A stretch of 64,000 nucleotides of DNA from Allocoleopsis franciscana PCC 7113 (GCF_000317515.1 NC_019738.1:4056001-4120000), one strand, 5' to 3'. Counted from the first letter of the stretch, positions 27,877-46,722 are shown. The notes: generated from the letters alone by a model not told the origin. Translations and numbers: made by a program.

Positions 27877-28866
27877 TCAATCAATTTTGGATTTTGGATT
27901 TTGAAGGGTCTCCACGGATGAATCTGGGGGCTGGCAATCAATCATAATCTCTTTCGTTCTAGGTTGAGCCTGTAGGAACTTCAAAAAATTCTGTTGGTTA
28001 AAGCTTCTTGGGTCGCCTCTTTGACCGGAACGATCGACAGCTTTATGAGTTGTAATTCGGTAATCAGGGACTCCAGTTTTGGCGATTAACCAGGCCAGAG
28101 ATTGGTATTGAGCCTTGGTATAACCACTATGTCGTCGGCGATTATTATTACCATCTCTGGGTGTTTCTAGAGATACATGATATGCAAAATTGTTGACCGA
28201 CGGAGGATGTTTAGGACTAGTTTTTACAGTTTCTCGCCCATTTTCACTCTCAAAAACCGAGTTCCCCGCCCCATAAGCTCTCATGTCTGGAGGGACTATA
28301 TAAACAATTTCACCGGAACGCTTAATTAATGAGTGATAGCTTACTTGTTGTGAATCTAGTGGGTGTGGAGTTCGGAATAAATTAATGGCACTCCTAGCTG
28401 AACCAACGGTTTCATGAATCACAACAATGGGAGCGTATTGGGCGGGTTTACCATACAAGTCATTGAGAAAACGTTCTCCATAGTTTGTGGGATGGGCTAC
28501 AGCAATGGATTCGATGGGTTGGGAATTGTTAAAGAGTCTGAAAGGACTTTGTCTATTAATAGGTTCTCCTGTAGATGGATTAACTTCATTGCCAAGTTTT
28601 CTAAAACGGGAGAGGGTAATTGGCTGAAACTCAATATCAGTGAATTGATTCCATGTTTGTTTATTGATTTCTGGCTGTAGAGCACACCTTGAGGGAATAG
28701 CTGGAGCCATATTTTTTCCATCAATATTGGAGTTAGGAGATAACTGATGGGGCACACCAAACTCATTATCACTTACCAATTCTGTTCGCCCCGTCTTCGG
28801 ACTCACAATTATGATTGTTAACCACAAAGCTAATAAGAATATAAGACTTACTAGATATTGTTTCAT
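27877..28866 (-). CDS. Secreted N-acetylmuramoyl-L-alanine amidase (Amidase_2/PGRP fold)
   Basis: A 329-residue protein with an N-terminal membrane-spanning or signal segment (QYLVSLIFLLALWLTIIIV, residues 3-21), then a linker, then a zinc amidase domain at about 140-310. VVIHETVG carries the first zinc His, SYHSLIKRSGEIVYIVP and NFAYHVSLETPRDG are family signatures, and RITTHKAVDRSGQRGDP carries the second His and the last acidic ligand. It should cut the MurNAc-L-Ala bond in the periplasm. In contrast to the peptidoglycan-directed set at 38.6-44.9 kb, this one has a clear export signal. Confidence 0.88.
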   Translation of the reverse strand: MKQYLVSLIFLLALWLTIIIVSPKTGRTELVSDNEFGVPHQLSPNSNIDGKNMAPAIPSRCALQPEINKQTWNQFTDIEFQPITLSRFRKLGNEVNPSTGEPINRQSPFRLFNNSQPIESIAVAHPTNYGERFLNDLYGKPAQYAPIVVIHETVGSARSAINLFRTPHPLDSQQVSYHSLIKRSGEIVYIVPPDMRAYGAGNSVFESENGRETVKTSPKHPPSVNNFAYHVSLETPRDGNNNRRRHSGYTKAQYQSLAWLIAKTGVPDYRITTHKAVDRSGQRGDPRSFNQQNFLKFLQAQPRTKEIMIDCQPPDSSVETLQNPKSKID

Positions 28867-36263: not shown

Positions 36264-36322
36264 TCGATTGATTGCGATCGCACCTGGAGCCGTCTGAATG
36301 AGCAGTAGAACTCACATTAAAC

Positions 36323-37387
36323 TCACGTCTCACTTTGATTCATGTCATTTCTGAACTTAGCCAGTTCCCCATAAATTCGCTTACGAGCGCGATTAACCCC
36401 TCCTAAGGGTTGATGTTCTAGTAGAGTATGCCAGGGGGAAAACGATTGCTTTTCATCCAACCGTTTGCGCTCCTCGGTGTTAAAGTCTTGGGCGGGAATT
36501 CTAATTGTTGCTACCTTGATATAAGGAGATTCTTGTTCATCCCACTCAACTGTTGGGTCTTCAATGGGCATCTTGACTGCATCGGTTTGCAGTTGAATTT
36601 TAAAATCAAAACAAGCATCTTGACTAGCTAAATGTTGAGTCATTGCCTCCCGCAGATAATTACTTTTATCAGCAGCATTGTCTGGATTGAAGCTTTCGCC
36701 CGTGACATGGGGAACTACAGAAAATTTTATGGCTTGATTGCCCAATTTGTAGGGAGTCGCACTCCAATAGGGAATTTCTAACGGACTGGTAGTTACTTTT
36801 GCTTTAATTTTCTGAAACCTTGGGAAGGCGTAAGCCACGGCTTGAAAATTTGCTTGTAACTCAGCGGGTACGTCGGGCGGTTCGCCTGGTTTGAAAACGA
36901 TTTTCTCTTCTTTAATGGCTCTAACAACAGGGAAAAAGTCAATGTACCCCTGAACGTCACGAATAAAGAACGTGGGATGATTCATCAGAATAAAATCTTG
37001 CTCTCCTTGATGTTCAGAATCAGGGAGTACCATTTCACCTTCGACATGCATCAGCTTGATTGCCATCCCGCGAACATCACCGACTGTATCCGGCACAAAA
37101 TCTCCAGTCTGTGGATTGCGATCGCTCCCGCCATTAGAAAAACGAATCCAGATTGGATAGGTTTTGGATTGCTTAAAAACCCCAGCTTTCATAGTCTCAG
37201 GGATATCTTCTTCAACGATAAACTCTCCCTGAACGTAGCCGTGACTTTTGGGATGCTGATCTCTCGACATGGGGGGATGAGGTTTGCCTTTCATCGACAA
37301 TTTACTGATTTTCAATATTTGTTCAATCTGGGCTTCCTCTTCCTGTGGCGGATATTCTTTGCCTAACTCTAACGGTGCTTTTGCCAT
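36323..37387 (-). CDS. Catalase-related heme protein
   Basis: A 354-residue protein from the ATG at 37387 (MAKAPLELGKEYPPQEEEA). It has the shortened catalase-like fold: HPKSHGYVQGEFIVEEDIPE with the distal His, the WIRFSNGG strand, DVRGMAIKLMHVEGE, a QDFILMNHPTFFIRD segment, and the proximal RARKRIYGELAKFR with a Tyr at the heme-ligand position. Such short catalase-family proteins are often peroxidases or fatty-acid hydroperoxide enzymes (allene oxide synthase-like) rather than true catalases. It has no signal peptide and lies 205 bases downstream of the DUF3616 gene on the same strand. Confidence 0.85.
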   Translation of the reverse strand: MAKAPLELGKEYPPQEEEAQIEQILKISKLSMKGKPHPPMSRDQHPKSHGYVQGEFIVEEDIPETMKAGVFKQSKTYPIWIRFSNGGSDRNPQTGDFVPDTVGDVRGMAIKLMHVEGEMVLPDSEHQGEQDFILMNHPTFFIRDVQGYIDFFPVVRAIKEEKIVFKPGEPPDVPAELQANFQAVAYAFPRFQKIKAKVTTSPLEIPYWSATPYKLGNQAIKFSVVPHVTGESFNPDNAADKSNYLREAMTQHLASQDACFDFKIQLQTDAVKMPIEDPTVEWDEQESPYIKVATIRIPAQDFNTEERKRLDEKQSFSPWHTLLEHQPLGGVNRARKRIYGELAKFRNDMNQSET

Positions 37388-37592
37388 GATATTTGGGTTA
37401 CTTTTGTCAGGTTTGTAAATTTGCAAGTTGTAGAGGTGTGGGGAAGTGCGATAGCATCTTTCACGCTCATCTATTGTTATCTGGCGAATAGATGAACAAG
37501 TATTGATGTGAACTTGCAGTTTAACCCTTATCTATAAAAAACGATCGCAATACAGACTAGAGTAGATTTCCCGAATAAATCGGTAAAAAATC

Positions 37593-38567
37593 TTAAGTTT
37601 CACTCACAGTAATCCACAAACTGCGGAAATATTTTTCGGAATGATTCTCATCCTTTATTTCTTTACATTCCTTACCATCAGCTCTGATGATTGCTCCATC
37701 ATCGCTGATAATTTGCAGTTGATTCTTTCGGTTAGGATAAAATAAAACCGCTTCTGGACGAAAATCAGATGGTAAATTAATTGCTTCAATTTTTTCGGGA
37801 GTATCTTGGCAATTGCCTGACCACCAATACAAAGCGAATTCATCGCTGCTATCGTAAGCTCCAGCAATTATCAAATAGACTTGATAAACTTGCCAATATT
37901 CAATACTCCGAATGCCCAAGCCTCCTAAATCAAGTTCAATTGGGTTGCCAAAAATGGCATTGACTTCGTCTTCCTTTTCCTGAATGAGGTCGAGAGGATT
38001 CGTTAAGGGTAAAATTAAAGCCTTACCTCTAGGGATAGGATTACGGAAACCAATTAATAATTTCCCATCTGGAGTAGCGGTTAATCCTTCAATATTTAAG
38101 CCACCTTTTTCTTTAGGCGCTAACTCTTCTGCTTTCTCAAGAACATAGTTTTTAAGTCGTTCATCTTGAAACATATCCTTAAAAACTAGTTGGGTGTAAG
38201 ACTTTCCTACTTGCTCTAAGATTGGTTGACCAGGATGAGTGATTTTATTGGCAAAAAATTGATGACGTAATGGTTTGCGCTTCTTCTTTTTATTTCTGCC
38301 GTGAGAAGTTATCCAGTAAATGAGTCCATTTAGTTCTGTTGCTGCTTCAATATCAACTTCTTCTTTCTCAGGATTGTTTGGAAAGTAATTGTTAATATCA
38401 ATGATGGTACGCGGCTTACCTGACTCATCAGCCGAATAGACTCTTAAAAAATTATCTTCATCATTGGCAACGATAAAGCTATTGTCGTCTAAAGCAATAG
38501 CTCCAGAAGCATCACAAATGCCATGATGTTTTAGTTCTTTTTCAACGGCAAAGCTAAGTTTTTGCAT
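37593..38567 (-). CDS. DUF3616 domain-containing protein
   Basis: A 324-residue predicted beta-propeller-like protein of the DUF3616 family: GICDASGAIALDDNSFIVANDEDNFLRVYS, EVDIEAATELNGLIYWITSHGRNKKKKRKPLR (split for length: about 70-100), and LNIEGLTATPDGKLLIGFRNPI. The family has no experimental function. There is no signal peptide. It is the last gene before the peptidoglycan-directed set begins, 60 bases from the serine hydrolase gene and on the same strand. Confidence 0.82.
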   Translation of the reverse strand: MQKLSFAVEKELKHHGICDASGAIALDDNSFIVANDEDNFLRVYSADESGKPRTIIDINNYFPNNPEKEEVDIEAATELNGLIYWITSHGRNKKKKRKPLRHQFFANKITHPGQPILEQVGKSYTQLVFKDMFQDERLKNYVLEKAEELAPKEKGGLNIEGLTATPDGKLLIGFRNPIPRGKALILPLTNPLDLIQEKEDEVNAIFGNPIELDLGGLGIRSIEYWQVYQVYLIIAGAYDSSDEFALYWWSGNCQDTPEKIEAINLPSDFRPEAVLFYPNRKNQLQIISDDGAIIRADGKECKEIKDENHSEKYFRSLWITVSET

Positions 38568-38627
38568 AATTTTCTCTCCTTTTTTTTCTCAACGCCAGAG
38601 CATAAATCGGAATGGTTAATGTATTTT

Positions 38628-40109
38628 TCAAGCTAGTTTCTCATTGATAATCCGCCGCACAATTTCTGTGACTGCTGCCGCTAAATTAGTATCTCGCAGT
38701 TCATTAGAGCCATTGGGAGTTCGTAGTGCCATCGCGAAAGTTCTTAATTTTGCAGGTTGCACACGGCGATCAACAAATTTCACAAAAGCCACATAGGTAA
38801 AGGAACTTTCCCCAAATCCAACTTTAGAAATAATGACTGGTTCGCTAATGACATCAACAACTCCTAGAGTTTCTAGCGCTACATCCACATAACGGGCAGG
38901 ATCTGTTCCCATTGCTCGCACAACACTTTCTAAACTATTCCACTGTGCGTTTGGTAATCGAGTATTAGGAGTTAGATGCAAATGCCAGCCCAGCATGGAA
39001 ATAATACGAACTAAGTCGTAAGCAGATACATGGTTATTTCCTATATTCCCTTCAGATGTTGAACTAAGAACCGATGTCCCACTGGCAATATCCTTGACTT
39101 GTGGATTAGAAATTAACGATGGAAAATCCTTTCCATATCCACCTCTAAATTCTAATTTATTATTACCAGTTTGTCCTTTTAACCAAGCTTCTAAATGTTC
39201 TCGTTTAGTAAATCGCTTAAATAAAGCTCCAATTCGATTAGAACGCCCTATATTTCCTTTTGCATCTTCTCGATAGGACACCATATCAATGAGTAAATCG
39301 TGAAACCGGAATTTAGGAGATTCAATGGTGCAATTATCAATGTCAATACTCAGAGGATTGGCATGAATTTGACAGATAGCATTCAAAACACCGATAAACT
39401 TAGTGGCGCTGAGTAATTGAATTGGTTCTAAAGCATTTTTTCCTAACCAATGAGTTTTAATCGAACTACTTCCATCGCTAAAACTGCCGATGCAAATACA
39501 GGCATGAGAAATGTTACTAGCGAGAAAATTTAAACCAGTATTATCAATGATGGGTAATTTACCTTGGTTTGGATAATCACTGAATGTTACCGTTTTACCT
39601 GAACTTAAAGTGATGCTATCTCCATAGGAAATGATTGATGTTCCGTCTGGTTTCTGAGCTAGGTATTGGGGGTAGTTGCTAATTTCTGCTGCAAAAGGAG
39701 AGTTCCGAGTAGTACGCGCTATAAAGGCATCATTCACCCCAATATTAACAGGAGCAGGACTGTTAGTTTGAATACCTGTCAATTTTTCAAGAATAAATTT
39801 GGTGTTTTCAGCTTGCTCTAAAATGAAAGGCAGTTGTTTGGTTTCCAGTAGTTTTTTAGCAATATCTGCATTAATGGCTACTGTGTCTGAAGGAAGGCTA
39901 GAAGGCTCAAGTGCTTGACAAAATTCTTTTAACCCTTTCCAAGAGAAACTATTATTGCCCCCTAAATCTCCATCTATCCACTGTCCACCTGGATAAAGTC
40001 CTAAATTCCTCAGTCTTAGCTGAATTTCTCGTACTAATCCTTTATCAGCTTTTAGCTGGGTGCGTGTTAATACTGAATTGCCATTAATAAGGTCTTGAAG
40101 AGTAGTCAT
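38628..40109 (-). CDS. Putative serine DD-peptidase/beta-lactamase-fold protein with peptidoglycan-binding-like N terminus
   Basis: A 493-residue protein without signal peptide (starts MTTLQDLINGN). Residues 22-66 resemble a PG_binding_1 repeat (VREIQLRLRNLGLYPGG). The rest carries the three motifs of penicillin-recognising serine enzymes in order and at reasonable spacing: S234-A-T-K237 (SxxK), S290-N-R (SxN-like, in GNIGRSNRIG) and K429-V-G (KTG-like). SAYDLVRIISMLG at 362-374 is a family-like helix. It would hydrolyse or remodel D-Ala peptide bonds, but activity is inferred from motifs only. It is the last gene of a five-gene peptidoglycan-directed set. Confidence 0.65.
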   Translation of the reverse strand: MTTLQDLINGNSVLTRTQLKADKGLVREIQLRLRNLGLYPGGQWIDGDLGGNNSFSWKGLKEFCQALEPSSLPSDTVAINADIAKKLLETKQLPFILEQAENTKFILEKLTGIQTNSPAPVNIGVNDAFIARTTRNSPFAAEISNYPQYLAQKPDGTSIISYGDSITLSSGKTVTFSDYPNQGKLPIIDNTGLNFLASNISHACICIGSFSDGSSSIKTHWLGKNALEPIQLLSATKFIGVLNAICQIHANPLSIDIDNCTIESPKFRFHDLLIDMVSYREDAKGNIGRSNRIGALFKRFTKREHLEAWLKGQTGNNKLEFRGGYGKDFPSLISNPQVKDIASGTSVLSSTSEGNIGNNHVSAYDLVRIISMLGWHLHLTPNTRLPNAQWNSLESVVRAMGTDPARYVDVALETLGVVDVISEPVIISKVGFGESSFTYVAFVKFVDRRVQPAKLRTFAMALRTPNGSNELRDTNLAAAVTEIVRRIINEKLA

Positions 40110-40305
40110 GATTTTCCTCGTCTAAAGTTAGTTATTCATTCATGTTGATATTCAATTGTAAAGTTAATTTATCTACAGCAATCCTAAATCAGATCGGAGC
40201 GATATCTTTTAGAAAGGCTACAAGGAACCACCCCTACAAAGAACTCCTACAGGTTTTACACTGACTGTTCTATTTTTATTTAGGATTGCTATGTATTTAG
40301 ATTAA

Positions 40306-41076
40306 CTAAAAGTTATTTTTGAGTATGCCAAATACTCTTCCAGTCGCTCTCAAAAAACCACTACCATTTAATGGATATGTAGTGATCGAAACTGAGTTAC
40401 TGACGTTACCACCTAGGGTACGAACTTCTGTATCCCGAATTTCCACTACAATGTCACAGTGACTGGTAAATCCTCCATTAGGTAATGAATCCATAGAAGA
40501 AATCGCGTTATTACCACGCCAACGACATACTAAATCGCCAAGTTGTGGCTTATGTTCATTAACATTAAATCCCCAAAAAGGAGCAGAGTTTGTATTTGAT
40601 CTGCGTTTTTTCACTGCATCATGAATGTATGTAGAGTGAGCGGAGGCAAATTTGAAATTGTTATAACCAGCAACACGAGCAACAAAAGAAATAAAAGCTG
40701 CTGACCAAAACATATCTCGATCTCTTCCATCATGATTTGCTCCAATCTTTGACCAATACTCTCCCACATATTTAAATTGAGGATCTTCAAATTCTAATTT
40801 ATCCCCTTGATCGAATCGGAGCCATTCTTTTACAGCAGCGCTAATTAATGCCTCTTTAGCTGCGCTTACAGGTTGACGTAAAAAAGCTGCACTGGCAAAA
40901 CCTTGAAGAGTCGAGCCATTAATTATAGTTTTGACTTCCCAAAATCTAGCTGAAGGATTGCCATTTACAACTTCTACCTCCTGGGCAAGTGGTAAAGCGG
41001 TGATGATATTATCACTTTTGATTTCTGGAGATCTACGCAGATTCAGACTGTCAGTTTTAACTTTTAGTGTTGCCAT
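40306..41076 (-). CDS. SH3-DUF2272 protein (NlpC/P60-like fold)
   Basis: A 256-residue protein starting MATLKVKTDSLNLRRSPE. Residues 1-68 form a bacterial SH3 domain closely related to that of the next gene (LNLR, NIITALP, FWEVKTIINGSTLQGFAS). Residues 75-256 match DUF2272 in layout: YWSKIGANHDGRDRDMFWSAAFISFVAR, SHCDIVVEI and the HC/DIV turn typical of papain-like amidohydrolases acting on cell wall. No signal peptide or membrane segment. The catalytic Cys of NlpC/P60 is not obvious in the MFWSAAF region, as usual for DUF2272. Confidence 0.75.
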   Translation of the reverse strand: MATLKVKTDSLNLRRSPEIKSDNIITALPLAQEVEVVNGNPSARFWEVKTIINGSTLQGFASAAFLRQPVSAAKEALISAAVKEWLRFDQGDKLEFEDPQFKYVGEYWSKIGANHDGRDRDMFWSAAFISFVARVAGYNNFKFASAHSTYIHDAVKKRRSNTNSAPFWGFNVNEHKPQLGDLVCRWRGNNAISSMDSLPNGGFTSHCDIVVEIRDTEVRTLGGNVSNSVSITTYPLNGSGFLRATGRVFGILKNNF

Positions 41077-41166
41077 GATTATTCACCTTAATAGATTTTG
41101 TGTTGTGTATAACTAAGCACTAAACTTAGAATAAGTTGCTGGTTTGAAAGAAAGTTGCTGTACTTT

Positions 41167-42048
41167 TTAACTATGAGCATTCTTGAGTTCCTTGGTAATG
41201 GAGGCGTCATTTACTATGAAGGCATCAAATGTCCCACTCTCATTACTTTTGACGAAAGGGAAAGGATTCTTGTTTGCTACCCCGAGGAAAACATCAATAT
41301 GGTTATCTTTGATTGCTCCACCAACATCTGCGGCAAAAAAATAACCATCATGAAATGTACTTTCCCCAGACGGTACAATCACTTTTACTCCACGAGCTGC
41401 TGGAATGTAGATTACTGTACCGATCGCAATTTCAGTACGATCGACTGCAATGCTGCGATAGGGAACTAACTTTAATCCATTTACCCCTTCTCCGAAAATA
41501 CCCTTAGATAAGCCAAATCGAGTTTTATTTGTCTTACTGATTGTGGCTAAACTGGGGAAAAAAGGACGGCAATTTACTTGCTCTACTGCACCTGTACCTG
41601 CAAAATTAAATGTTTTAGTTTCGCCAGTCCCGGTACGGACATTAACAGTACCTTCAACTGCTGCACTACACCAATCTTTATCTGATAGTTTAACGCCTAA
41701 TTTATTGCCACTCATGTCTAGCAAATCAATGCCAGTAGAATCATGATTAACCAATGGAATAAAATAAAATGTCGCCCAAAGATTTAGTTTTTTACCAAGG
41801 GCGCTGCTGTTTGGTGAGGGAAAATTAAATTGGTCTAATACAGTAGACAGAAAAGATTTACTAACGAATCCATTTAAAGTGCGTCCATCTACAATAGCTC
41901 TTACCTGCCACCATTTTTCACTATCTGATTCACTACCAATTCGGGTAACAATTTGCCCTTGGGGTAGAACTGCGATAATATTATTGGAAGCAACTACACC
42001 AGATGAACGTAAATTTAATTCGGCTGAAATAACTCTAAAATCACTCAT
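41167..42048 (-). CDS. SH3 and 3D (Asp-Asp-Asp) domain protein, MltA-like lytic fold
   Basis: A 293-residue protein. Residues 1-68 are an SH3 domain paralogous to that of its downstream neighbour. Residues about 195-258 hold a 3D domain, the double-psi barrel of lytic transglycosylases, with the three aspartates D203 (AVDRTEIAIGT), D241 (AADVGGAIK) and D252 (HIDVF). The region between contains an additional beta-rich segment with two Cys residues. GGAGG precedes the ATG at good spacing. No signal peptide, although related 3D proteins are normally exported. Predicted to cut glycan strands. Confidence 0.8.
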   Translation of the reverse strand: MSDFRVISAELNLRSSGVVASNNIIAVLPQGQIVTRIGSESDSEKWWQVRAIVDGRTLNGFVSKSFLSTVLDQFNFPSPNSSALGKKLNLWATFYFIPLVNHDSTGIDLLDMSGNKLGVKLSDKDWCSAAVEGTVNVRTGTGETKTFNFAGTGAVEQVNCRPFFPSLATISKTNKTRFGLSKGIFGEGVNGLKLVPYRSIAVDRTEIAIGTVIYIPAARGVKVIVPSGESTFHDGYFFAADVGGAIKDNHIDVFLGVANKNPFPFVKSNESGTFDAFIVNDASITKELKNAHS

Positions 42049-42262
42049 AAAGAAACCTCCACATTTTTATCTAGGTTTAGCTATTTGCTACTTTGCTAAT
42101 TGAAAAAAAGTACTGGGTTGAACTTCCTATATCTAGAAGGACTTCTGAACGAAACCCAGAGCTAATTTTCAGTGAGTCTATAGTTAGAAGTGATTTTTAA
42201 GAGCGATCGCATCTGCTCTTTTAATAAAAACTAGGAGCGATCGCACTTTTTAAGTTCTGCTC

Positions 42263-43825
42263 CTATGCTCGTGGTGGTGGGCTAATTGCAAAGTGAATGT
42301 GGTGATGGTGTCCAAGGGCAAAACGACATAGCCCTCGGTCGATTAGTATTGGATCATTGAAGAAAACAGCTTTTTTATTGACTAGCTTCTGGTTGCGAAT
42401 TGACTTTAGCAAAGCCTCTGTTGCTTTCTGGTCATATTTTGCTTTCATCGTAAAATCAATGCCACCAAACTTGCCATCTTGTCGGGGTAAAAACACGTCA
42501 CACATCAAACCTGTTTCATGTCCAGAATGATGGGGAGTATCGCCACCATGAGGAAGACTGATATCATTAATGGCGAAAGGAGCAGCACCAGGATTAGCTT
42601 CTATATGGGTATTGTGGTAGTCTCTAGCGATGTCTAAAATAACCTCGGCTAACCAATGAGTTCCAAAATCATGCTTATCGCTAGTCTGTTCTAATTCTCT
42701 GTTGACAAAGCTAATTGCAGGATCGCTTTTCGGCATCAGAACCCACATTGGCGCGTTTGCTGCTTGTAACCATTGATGTGTAAAAAAATCAACATCAACT
42801 CGACCATCTGCTTTGTTTGTTCTTTGTTCACCAGCAATAATTGATTGAAACAACTTTATTGCGTCGTCCAACCCTCTGGTTCTTCTATCAGAGCCTGGAG
42901 AACCAACCCAGGTGTAACCAAGCTCATGCAGTCGCTGCATCACTGCCTTGATATCGTTTTTGGTATTAATTCCACCGACACCAACACTAGCACTTAATTT
43001 AATTGCCGCTTTACCTGGGTGTTTTGAGGTAGCTGTTCCTGCCGATGGGGGTGGTGATGGTACGCTATCCTTGACTTTAATGATGATTTCAATAGTGTGA
43101 ACGCCACTAGCAATCGTCATTGTTCGATTGCCTGCTGAATTAAACACAAAAGGAAATTCCCATTTTCCATCAGGAGCAACCGTCACACCTGGAGCAAAAA
43201 ACTTATCATCAATCCCTACGGCTAGTGTTTGACCGATAAATTTTGGATGAGCGACTCCTTCAACTGTGAAGACTTGTCCAACGACAACTTCTTCGGGAGC
43301 GCGGAGCAAATCAAATTCGTCAACAATAATTTTTCCTGTATCTGTACCTACTAGCAAGCCCTGAGCTTCGGGTACAAGTTTCATCACCTTTTCGACATAA
43401 TTAGGAACAGTTGAAAAGCCTTTTGCCTGAAGGAACCCCAGAAAATTTTCTGGTGTATTGGTATTTTCTTCTAACCCAATGTAAGGAGGACGAGTTAAAA
43501 ACTTCCAATAACCAACAATAAAAGCATCAACATCTTTGAAATTACAAAACTTAACTAGCTCCGGTTGAGAAGCAACGTTAATTTCAATTGGCTCAGCAAA
43601 ACCATTCATCTCATCGCGCCATTGCAATCTAGCAAAATTGTTAGCCTTAATAGCCAATTCTTCAGTTGCTTTGTCTGATGCTAGCAGCCATTGAGCCAAG
43701 GTTACTTCTTTCAAAATTTGTAGATTAATTAGATTAATCTTGCCAACTTCAATTCCAACATTGGTGAAGATTATCTCTAAATCTACCGCCGTATACTTTT
43801 GCACTAGCTCGTTCAGTAATGACAT
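42263..43825 (-). CDS. Modular murein hydrolase: degenerate GH73, Ig-like, PG-binding, M74 endopeptidase
   Basis: A 520-residue multidomain protein with no signal peptide. Residues 40-155 resemble a glucosaminidase (ELAIKANNF, FLTRPPYIGL, PNYVEKVMKLV), but the usual ALES catalytic Glu reads LLAS. Residues 175-250 are Ig-like, 255-275 a linker, and 288-355 a PG_binding_1 domain. Residues 370-515 form an M74/MepA-type zinc endopeptidase: H436 and D443 in SGHETGLMCDVF with the exact seven-residue spacing, and H509/H511 in GHHHHIHFAI. It should cleave peptide cross-links. It follows the amidase gene by 42 bases. Confidence 0.78.
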   Translation of the reverse strand: MSLLNELVQKYTAVDLEIIFTNVGIEVGKINLINLQILKEVTLAQWLLASDKATEELAIKANNFARLQWRDEMNGFAEPIEINVASQPELVKFCNFKDVDAFIVGYWKFLTRPPYIGLEENTNTPENFLGFLQAKGFSTVPNYVEKVMKLVPEAQGLLVGTDTGKIIVDEFDLLRAPEEVVVGQVFTVEGVAHPKFIGQTLAVGIDDKFFAPGVTVAPDGKWEFPFVFNSAGNRTMTIASGVHTIEIIIKVKDSVPSPPPSAGTATSKHPGKAAIKLSASVGVGGINTKNDIKAVMQRLHELGYTWVGSPGSDRRTRGLDDAIKLFQSIIAGEQRTNKADGRVDVDFFTHQWLQAANAPMWVLMPKSDPAISFVNRELEQTSDKHDFGTHWLAEVILDIARDYHNTHIEANPGAAPFAINDISLPHGGDTPHHSGHETGLMCDVFLPRQDGKFGGIDFTMKAKYDQKATEALLKSIRNQKLVNKKAVFFNDPILIDRGLCRFALGHHHHIHFAISPPPRA

Positions 43826-43867
43826 AGTTATTTCTATCCTCTCAAAGATTTTTTTAGTTCAACGTCT

Positions 43868-44941
43868 CTATTTTCGTGGGTTCTTTTTCAGCCAATCGAC
43901 AATTGCTCGACCAATTGCTTCACCACCGTGACTTGAAGAAGTTTTGAGGTCGGGTTTTGGGAAACTTTTTCCCTTAACTGTACCGCCTACAAAATCAATG
44001 AAATAAACTTCTGCAAGAACAGCAGCGCGAACATTTGTGTCTTCAGCACCTGACAAAACTCCCAAGTTGGCTTGTTTTGCCCCTCCATCGATAAGACCCA
44101 AAGTTTTAGACATTTCTGCGGATATCATGCTGGCAAGTTCTTGATCTGGTTTTTCACCCTTTGTTGCGTGTGAAAAAGCTTCTGATCTTTGTGCTGTGTT
44201 TTGTCCCTTTCTAAGAGCATTATGGTGAACGCTACAGAACACATCAAACCCAGATGCTTTTAAACCAAGGATGCGAAGACTTCCTGGCGTGTCGATAACT
44301 GTGCAATTAACTCCAGCTGCAACAAGCACATTACGAGCAGCATTTGCAGCAATTATATTGAGTTCGTGTTCTGTCGTTTTATTGTCATGGGCGATCGCAC
44401 CCGGATCGAACGGAACCCCAGGCCCATGTCCAATCTCTAGTATTACCCGATGTCCAGACGGTTTAGGTGGTGTAGGTGTAGGTGTACGTGGCTTCCATTC
44501 AGGAATGCCTTGTGGAATTGATATGCTAGCCGGAGCAATTTGAAAAGTATTAGCACCCGAATGTCTTACCAAGAAGTCAATCAGAGCTTGCCTGAGATTC
44601 CCTTTATAAAACTCGACTTCATTAGTATCTTTCATTGCAATTACAATCGGTTGCCCATCTCCATTACGAAAAAATTGAAACCAAGTTGCATCGGGTGTCC
44701 CATTAGTGTCATCGGAAGCACTTGAGTCACTTTGCGGAAGAAGCTCAACTGCCTCCACTTCACTGTCAGAACCATCTGGTTTCGCTACGAGAAACGTACC
44801 TGCTCCAGAAAAACGCTTCAAAAACCCGATTAGATTATCCTTAGAATCACTATTAAGGCTCTCTTCTACAGTTCCGCCATTCATGGCAGACACGAGGGGT
44901 TTATCGCTTTTATCGCGGGCAAATGAAATCCAGTTAGCCAT
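43868..44941 (-). CDS. N-acetylmuramoyl-L-alanine amidase (Amidase_3) with two N-terminal repeats
   Basis: A 357-residue protein starting MANWISFARDKSDKPLV. Two related segments of about 50 residues (4-54 and 87-136: WxxFxRxxxxxPxVxAM ... FLxRxSGAxTF) precede a Pro/Thr linker. The catalytic Amidase_3 domain (165-350) has all zinc ligands: H172 in ILEIGHGPG, E191 in TEHELN and H239 in FCSVHHNA, with the catalytic E311 in LAEVYFIDF. No signal peptide is present, unlike typical AmiC-type enzymes. It is the first gene of the five-gene peptidoglycan-directed set. Confidence 0.85.
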   Translation of the reverse strand: MANWISFARDKSDKPLVSAMNGGTVEESLNSDSKDNLIGFLKRFSGAGTFLVAKPDGSDSEVEAVELLPQSDSSASDDTNGTPDATWFQFFRNGDGQPIVIAMKDTNEVEFYKGNLRQALIDFLVRHSGANTFQIAPASISIPQGIPEWKPRTPTPTPPKPSGHRVILEIGHGPGVPFDPGAIAHDNKTTEHELNIIAANAARNVLVAAGVNCTVIDTPGSLRILGLKASGFDVFCSVHHNALRKGQNTAQRSEAFSHATKGEKPDQELASMISAEMSKTLGLIDGGAKQANLGVLSGAEDTNVRAAVLAEVYFIDFVGGTVKGKSFPKPDLKTSSSHGGEAIGRAIVDWLKKNPRK

Positions 44942-45524
44942 GTCATCACCTTATTTAAGACTTAAAACAATGCTTCGCTTAAACGAGTGCGGTCTGTATT
45001 TGCCATCAAAACTTTTCCGTACGCGGCAGCATAACTCAACGAATAACCCACACCCGATCGCACTGTCGGTGAGAAAAAGTGAGTTCTTTTTGTAAAGATT
45101 GGTAAATTCCCCTGTGATCGAGCGATGGAAAAAGAGCGATGCCTGCGGAAAGCAATGCTTACGCCTCTTTCACCCTCATCTCTTCCATAACGATGAAACC
45201 AACCTAACTGTTCGGTATACGCCTTGGCAGTCGGAAAAAGTCAGCATAAAGTCAGATAGAAAGTCGTAAAAAGTCAGATCCTCACAGCAGCTAGAATTAC
45301 GTCACTGTGCTTAAAAACTGGCTCACGACTCCACACGGCTGGAGAAAAAGCTAGCGCGATCTGTCTTAGCGGCAGCGCAAGCGCGATCGCTCAACCCTAA
45401 ATTGAAGCGGAAAGAAACGCGATCGCTCAATAGAGGTTGAGGTATCGGGGGAGTAGCTTTCGATTGGAAAATCTTAAGGGGAACTACCAGAGGAAAACCC
45501 CCTGGGATGAACTATTTAACGCCT
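44942..45524. other. HIP1-rich intergenic region before xisH
   Basis: About 580 bases, divergent between the amidase gene and xisH. It contains the left copy of a 31-bp direct repeat (45048-45078), several GCGATCGC octamers near 45385-45425, and a TCAGCATAAAGTCAG / AAAGTCGTAAAAAGTCAG set of AAGTCAG repeats at 45240-45277. No gene was recognised. Confidence 0.6.
45048..45078 (+). repeat. 31-bp direct repeat flanking xisHI, left copy
   Basis: Matches 46278-46308 at 28 of 31 positions (CCACACC, GATCGCACTGTC and GTGAGA blocks). The core CACTGTCGGTG is an imperfect dyad. The copies are exactly 1230 bases apart and lie on either side of the xisH-xisI pair. Confidence 0.8.
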
Positions 45525-46277: not shown

Positions 46278-46308
46278 CCACACCTGATCGCACTGTCAGT
46301 GAGATAAA
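46278..46308 (+). repeat. 31-bp direct repeat flanking xisHI, right copy
   Basis: Right partner of 45048-45078, starting 13 bases after the xisI stop codon. In this copy the core is a perfect dyad, CACTG-T-CAGTG (46291-46301), which looks like a protein-binding or recombination site. Confidence 0.8.
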
Positions 46309-46407
46309 ATAAAATACTCCGGAAGGAGGATGTAAATTTTAGATGTATTACTGTGAGACACCCTGAAAAATCCAGTAAATTTAAGACTTACGTCAAGATG
46401 ACTGGCA

Positions 46408-46722
46408 ATGACAGGACAAGAAGCGCTCACTTTCGTCGATACATTTTTACGCTTTGGTCACAAAAGGCAAAGACTCAATGACATTCAATCAGAAGTCTTT
46501 CTGCAAACTTGGGCTGGACTCTCCTATAAAGAGATTGCCCAGCAGTTAGGTTATCAACACGACTACATCAAACAAGTTGGTTCGCAACTGTGGCGAAGTC
46601 TCTCCCAAGCCTTCGGCGAACCCGTCTCGAAGCAAAATGTTAAAGCCGTTTTACGCCACTACCAACAAGAAACCTGCGCCCTCCCCGACACTCGTGGAAT
46701 ATCAAAAGCAGTGCTTTGCTAA
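46408..46722 (+). pseudogene. Solo vMAP-type helix-turn-helix domain, remnant of a large signalling protein
   Basis: A 104-residue frame whose first 85 residues (TGQEALTFVDTFLRFGHKRQ, QSEVFLQTWAGLSYKEIAQQ, YIKQVGSQLWRSLSQAFGE) match the N-terminal HTH domain (vWA-MoxR-associated protein type) found at the start of cyanobacterial AAA/NACHT-WD40 and CHAT-type proteins. Nothing of the expected ATPase or repeat domain follows; the frame ends in a short unrelated tail. It is therefore probably a truncated gene, although a free-standing HTH regulator cannot be excluded. Confidence 0.6.

Follow-up and report, generated by a model that had tools for sequence, protein, structure and literature searches.

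A leaderless wall-hydrolase cassette of Allocoleopsis franciscana PCC 7113 as the exchangeable payload of a putative STAND/HTH-controlled lysis module

What use a cyanobacterium may have for a row of peptidoglycan-cutting enzymes that carry no export signal is the question raised by a 64,000-nucleotide stretch of the Allocoleopsis franciscana PCC 7113 genome (NC_019738.1:4056001-4120000; the window, below). An earlier note on this DNA had described five consecutive minus-strand genes for wall-directed proteins, termed A to E here, and had seen in them a dedicated lytic cassette. We recovered all five open reading frames at the coordinates and with the N termini that it gave (Table 1); gaps of 42-214 bp separate them, and a terminator scan, whose overall candidate count stayed below that of shuffles, returned zero candidates between the five genes. 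The DUF3616 gene is part of the same block and lies within the exchanged segment described below.

Table 1. Features of the hydrolase block and its control region, in window coordinates
Feature	Position	Strand	Remarks
Gene A	38628..40109	-	PG-binding-like N terminus and SxxK/SxN/KxG serine hydrolase (predicted); leaderless
Gene B	40306..41076	-	SH3 and DUF2272 (papain-like, Ser replacing Cys); leaderless
Gene C	41167..42048	-	SH3 and 3D (MltA-like lytic transglycosylase); leaderless
Gene D	42263..43825	-	GH73 (catalytic Glu replaced by Ala49), Ig-like, PG-binding-like and M74-type endopeptidase
Gene E	43868..44941	-	two N-terminal repeats and Amidase_3; leaderless
DUF3616 gene, sixth of block	37593..38567	-	leaderless; 60 bp downstream of A
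Payload block	37496..45032	-	other genes there in sister species G001 (alignment with G001)
Control region surrounding element	45033..45334	.	88% identity with G001
Putative operator TGTCGGTGAGAAAAAGTGAG	45064..45083	+	direct repeat GTGAG-N5-GTGAG; ~120 bp upstream of E
xisH and most of xisI, inserted segment	45335..46249	+	between element and HTH gene; missing in G001
Degenerate second element copy	46294..46313	+	3 mismatches; ~95 bp upstream of HTH gene
Divergent sigma-region-4-like HTH gene	46408..46722	+	104 aa; homologues solo or fused to NB-ARC(-WD40)

Our comparison of N termini bears out that the five proteins have no signal peptide and that the amidase at 27877-28866 of the same window, with which they had been contrasted, has one: the best 15-residue Kyte-Doolittle mean is 0.3-1.3 for the former and 2.9 for the latter. 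Nor is an upstream start possible that would supply such a signal in frame, extension reaching a stop after 2-11 codons and gaining no hydrophobic segment. By the 10-residue hydrophobicity maximum the leaderless group (at most 1.8) separates from eight signal-bearing controls (at least 2.1), and every payload hydrolase checked by N-terminal hydrophobicity at the element-linked loci described below is leaderless. The N-terminal export signal that marks housekeeping and exported murein hydrolases is missing from the five proteins, and leaderless wall-protein relatives with freely shuffled domains are widespread in the order; the idea of a dedicated, non-housekeeping lytic cassette is supported.

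As to the enzymes themselves, Pfam recognises DUF2272 in B (5.7e-30), a 3D domain in C (2.1e-12) and Amidase_3 in E (3.1e-13), DUF2272 having been grouped with papain-like families in which Ser takes the place of Cys (PMC10318531). Protein A has no Pfam family match and is predicted to be a serine hydrolase from its SxxK/SxN/KxG motifs, which are retained in the homologues examined. The assignment of D as a peptidoglycan-binding M74 protein is tentative: metal-site residues H436, D443, H509 and H511 are kept and invariant among homologues, but the Pfam match is weak (0.0043) and under the family cutoff, and an N-terminal GH73 glucosaminidase domain (residues 35-152, 6.8e-11) had been overlooked. 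This domain is probably inactive because Ala49 (in LLASDK) occupies the position where the other GH73 copies examined have Glu; hence glycan cutting, which the five enzymes had been thought to share with the cutting of other wall bonds, would depend on the 3D gene C. An AlphaFold model of A from a single sequence (mean pLDDT 32) was unusable, and with one of D from 20 sequences (pLDDT 60) Foldseek recognised the Ig-like domain only; PDB sequence searches found no relative for A or D and weak relatives for E and C.

Endolysin-like domains of this sort, with PHROG endolysin matches for E and weak ones for D and B, might be what is left of the lysis genes of a prophage. We nevertheless regard a prophage remnant as highly improbable and its case as poorly supported, given that viral contigs gave no relative of D and phage records none of E, the one match being to the GH73 domain of D, that no phage structural genes were recognised adjoining the homologous loci and that these loci combine several wall-lytic genes with a STAND-type regulator. 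What the block does share with phage lysis cassettes of endolysin and holin is wall hydrolases without leaders and dependent on a breach of the membrane; it differs in having no recognised holin and no close phage homologues, and in having a regulator and control element instead.

The regulator, the element and the exchange of the payload, all overlooked in the earlier note, tell more about function than the list of enzymes. Aligned with its sister species G001, the window matches through the catalase gene (36318-37495), is unaligned over 37496-45032 and aligns again from 45033, which places the exchange junction 31 bp from the element. G001 retains regulator and element and has, at the payload position, a GH73-Amidase_2-LysM-M23 gene together with a gene for a patatin-like phospholipase whose N-terminal part is hydrophobic and of membrane type. 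The xisHI segment of the window is an insertion separate from this exchange. Because relatives keep regulator and element but carry different wall enzymes, the locus suggests a lysis module that can be exchanged and switched, not a set for routine upkeep of the wall.

The intact five-gene set of the earlier note was found only here, whereas partial sets recur, three to four of the five families occurring together in G062, G280, G606 and on plasmid pNPM5. G062 has E (65%), a further Amidase_3 gene and D on its main contig, and on a second contig homologues of A and B, each broken by inserted ORFs; there (L115, 8097-12250) the A and B homologues show 64-82% identity and the interrupting ORFs resemble insertion elements. 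G280, from outside the order, has genes for B (77%), GH75, M74, A (55%) and GHL10 in one row, G606 has M74, an A fragment, B and an SH3 gene, and pNPM5 has A (65%), M74, GHL10, M15 and SH3 genes, with a closely similar C-like SH3 module joined to a GH25-like domain. Full-length homologues of A occur at L034, L035 and L120 as well as on pNPM5, those of B (73-82%) at L115, L120 and L189, and in Nostoc and relatives a small leaderless Amidase_3 gene nearly always precedes D. A named-genome scan with E as query gave no match and was rerun with the D alignment, which gave no match for D in Anabaena PCC 7120.

Similar domains appear in other settings too. On a Rhizobium leguminosarum plasmid (L139, 8001-10103) a leaderless GH73-Amidase_2 gene precedes a DUF3616 gene whose product does have a signal peptide, and in Crocosphaera and Cyanothece (L088, 6285-9455; L089, 6561-9479) D-type PG-binding and M74 domains lie within long proteins with N-terminal membrane segments. 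At L028 and L029, genes that by eye resemble CHAT-type operons are only a few kb away from leaderless GH73-Amidase_2-M23 genes.

The 20-bp element, TGTCRGTGAGAWAARGTGAG, was noticed as a short conserved block within otherwise poorly alignable upstream DNA and then searched for genome-wide. Its site in the window is the sole exact one in this 8-Mb genome. Across the order, 24 of 389 genomes hold 25 exact sites, those of Nostoc sharing descent and hence not being independent, and the reversed control none. At 21/25 of these sites an HTH or HTH-NB-ARC(-WD40) gene is found no more than 3 kb away, and at 16/25 a wall hydrolase gene is; in all but one of these 16 the hydrolase gene is on the opposite strand and begins at a distance of 59-151 bp. 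Where HTH genes lack the element, a hydrolase of our BLAST panel is nearby in 1/29; as this panel, which also underlies the count of 16, was drawn partly from the counted loci themselves, payload classes at element/regulator loci were assigned by Pfam and comprise the unrelated families Amidase_3, GH73, M74, GH24, GH25, GH108, M15/VanY, DUF2272, C39 and NlpC/P60-like. Some exact sites carry other payloads (haloperoxidase-like, alpha/beta hydrolase, unknown), and one-mismatch sites are less specific, with a regulator near 11/25 in the loci examined. In a further sample of the class, three exact sites came from outside the order; an HTH-NB-ARC-WD40 gene is located downstream of one of them, and a wall hydrolase accompanies none, so that in this held-out test the link of the element to hydrolases failed (0/3) and that to the regulator mostly did (1/3). 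Thus, the element is most closely associated with the regulator, and wall-lytic payloads belong mainly to this order.

An element so close to an exchange junction could also be a site at which a mobile cassette system recombines or inserts, and not an operator. Two to four same-orientation copies do bracket payload units at six loci (L189 and, around separate units, L175, L182, L191, L195 and L197), and relatives occur on plasmids. Yet the spacing is near-constant and the orientation fixed relative to the payload start, copies also sit ~95 bp upstream of HTH genes, and no conserved recombinase was seen; we therefore think this alternative unlikely, the two roles being in any case mutually compatible. 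The units at L197 include a DyP peroxidase and a staphylococcal-nuclease-like gene.

As for the regulator, in 7/7 genomes with only 3-13 HTH copies apiece one copy is divergent from the cassette and no more than 2.6 kb away from it; the chance product for this proximity over five lineage representatives, a post hoc figure, is 5e-14. The HTH is fused to NB-ARC(-WD40) at L024, L057, L177, L180 and L189 and on pNPM5, where HTH-NB-ARC lies directly upstream of the hydrolase operon containing A; the window has the HTH part only. Joined Sigma70, NB-ARC and WD40 domains are on record in cyanobacteria (PMC11119718). Compared with G001, the window HTH gene has a dN of 0.05 and a dS of 0.23, and at dN/dS values of 0.14-0.30 the HTH gene, D and the amidase paired with D are under purifying selection. 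A reading of the HTH domain as 'vMAP' was dropped, Pfam giving a sub-threshold Sigma70_r4_2 match only. In G030 and on the NIES-3756 plasmid AAA_35 proteins occupy the regulator position; on the latter (L137, 4049-9594) two AAA-like genes and a DUF2272 gene are tightly spaced, and a 93-bp 'KHM-1 beta-lactamase' annotation in PLSDB (1548-1640) is apparently spurious.

Open-access literature text yielded no account of a regulator, element and payload arranged in this way, and PADLOC has no defence model that matches the window proteins, its one match being an unspecific one in the L180 regulator's repeat region. In MalT-type transcription activators a STAND ATPase is combined with an HTH whose sites of action are direct repeats. 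The present module would resemble them in both respects, but it has a sigma-4-like HTH at the N terminus, often has no sensor part and is directed at wall hydrolases. With the STAND/EAD conflict systems of multicellular prokaryotes (PMC7159879) it shares STAND-type components linked to effectors, and lysozyme and papain-like peptidoglycan peptidase domains are among the EAD1-linked effectors described by Kaur et al. 2020 (PMC7159879). What makes the link here, unlike in those systems, is an HTH gene in divergent orientation together with a DNA element common to the loci; this link is apparently transcriptional and leads to multi-enzyme operons.

Our findings that regulator, element and hydrolase genes are linked and that the payload is exchanged are well supported, and we infer DNA binding, a trigger, a breach of the membrane or other route to the wall, and a purpose. 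In the scheme that we favour, the sigma-4-like HTH protein, which relatives frequently have in fusion with an NB-ARC(-WD40) STAND sensor, would act on the 20-bp direct-repeat putative operator and so switch on the divergent operon of leaderless peptidoglycan-cutting enzymes, which may be harmless while in the cytosol and would reach the wall only after the inner membrane is breached. Since access to the wall would await such a breach, the likeliest use may be self- or sacrificial lysis, be it of stressed or infected cells or in trichome breakage. That these genes form a regulated module appears likely to us; for the whole scheme, a STAND/HTH-controlled module with exchangeable payload that probably serves self- or sacrificial lysis, we see the scales as evenly poised, and self-lysis taken as the purpose falls slightly short of that. 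More tentatively still, this may be a previously unnamed cyanobacterial system in which a fixed HTH/STAND-operator head governs interchangeable leaderless lytic payloads, block-swapped or arrayed, as a programmed wall-lysis switch in multicellular filaments. Several observations weigh against our favoured scheme: the window copy of the regulator is without NB-ARC-WD40, reading of the block and its neighbours recognised no holin or other membrane-breaching gene, three clusters of similar hydrolases (L115, L119, L120) have neither HTH nor element, and there are the non-hydrolase payloads at some exact sites and the outcome outside the order reported above. Stress-lysed Anabaena ghost cells are described as completely devoid of peptidoglycan (PMC8894136), and the passages of the ghost-cell and necridia literature used here (PMC8894136, PMC9415839) cite Lamont 1969 for a role of murein in sacrificial cell death; these passages name no responsible enzymes, any tie of the module to such cells is hypothetical, and the named-genome scan gave no D in Anabaena PCC 7120. 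The G001 phospholipase and the peptidoglycan-free ghost cells fit self-lysis, though neither is proof of it.

The enzymes could, in principle, leave the cell instead. Delivery as effectors of a contractile injection system, a route that the earlier note had considered, seems to us very improbable. This genome does have a tail-sheath gene, and elsewhere (L125, 8177-9805) a leaderless M74-PGB-GH19 gene lies beside such a system, shortly after sheath, tube and AAA ATPase genes and before a caspase-like gene. However, the sole sheath match here (G000:C1:7010495-7010914, L092), which lies with tube-like genes, is at a distance of 2.9 Mb, the 20 kb around it contain no panel hydrolase, and G062 (completeness 100%) has E, an amidase and D yet no sheath match. 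Co-occurrence of cassette and sheath in the 148 genomes searched is weak (8/11 vs 54/137, p = 0.05) and confounded by phylogeny, for which it was not corrected.

The main rival to self-lysis is release to attack other cells, in which the same regulated enzymes would get out of the cell without a leader, be it in vesicles, through an unknown exporter or when a few cells lyse, to break down the walls of competing, prey or partner organisms. GH19, chitosanase-like GH75 (L120) and SLH-bearing members in related clusters speak for it, GH75 and GH19 suggesting extracellular targets, as do exported homologues (a Tat-like A domain at L036, a signal-bearing DUF2272 at L116) and the efficient secretion of the leaderless protein HesF by Anabaena (PMC4390845). 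The predator Herpetosiphon, too, has hydrolases of like kinds, namely PG-binding, Amidase_2 and M74 genes on pHAU01 (L140, 5514-8627), all of them signal-bearing. Against this, no export gene is linked to the cassette and element-linked payloads are mostly plain murein hydrolases, so that we regard such a weapon or foraging set as possible but rather doubtful.

The proposal of a regulated self-lysis module is testable in that the element, short and nearly unique, predicts both regulator and lytic targets, and it offers a search key for more wall-lytic enzymes. If payload exchange is general, the module would be unusual in pairing a control head that stays the same with enzymes that can be swapped, and, within what the cited accounts of ghost cells and necridia cover, it may bear on what enzymes break down the wall when cyanobacterial cells lyse or are sacrificed.
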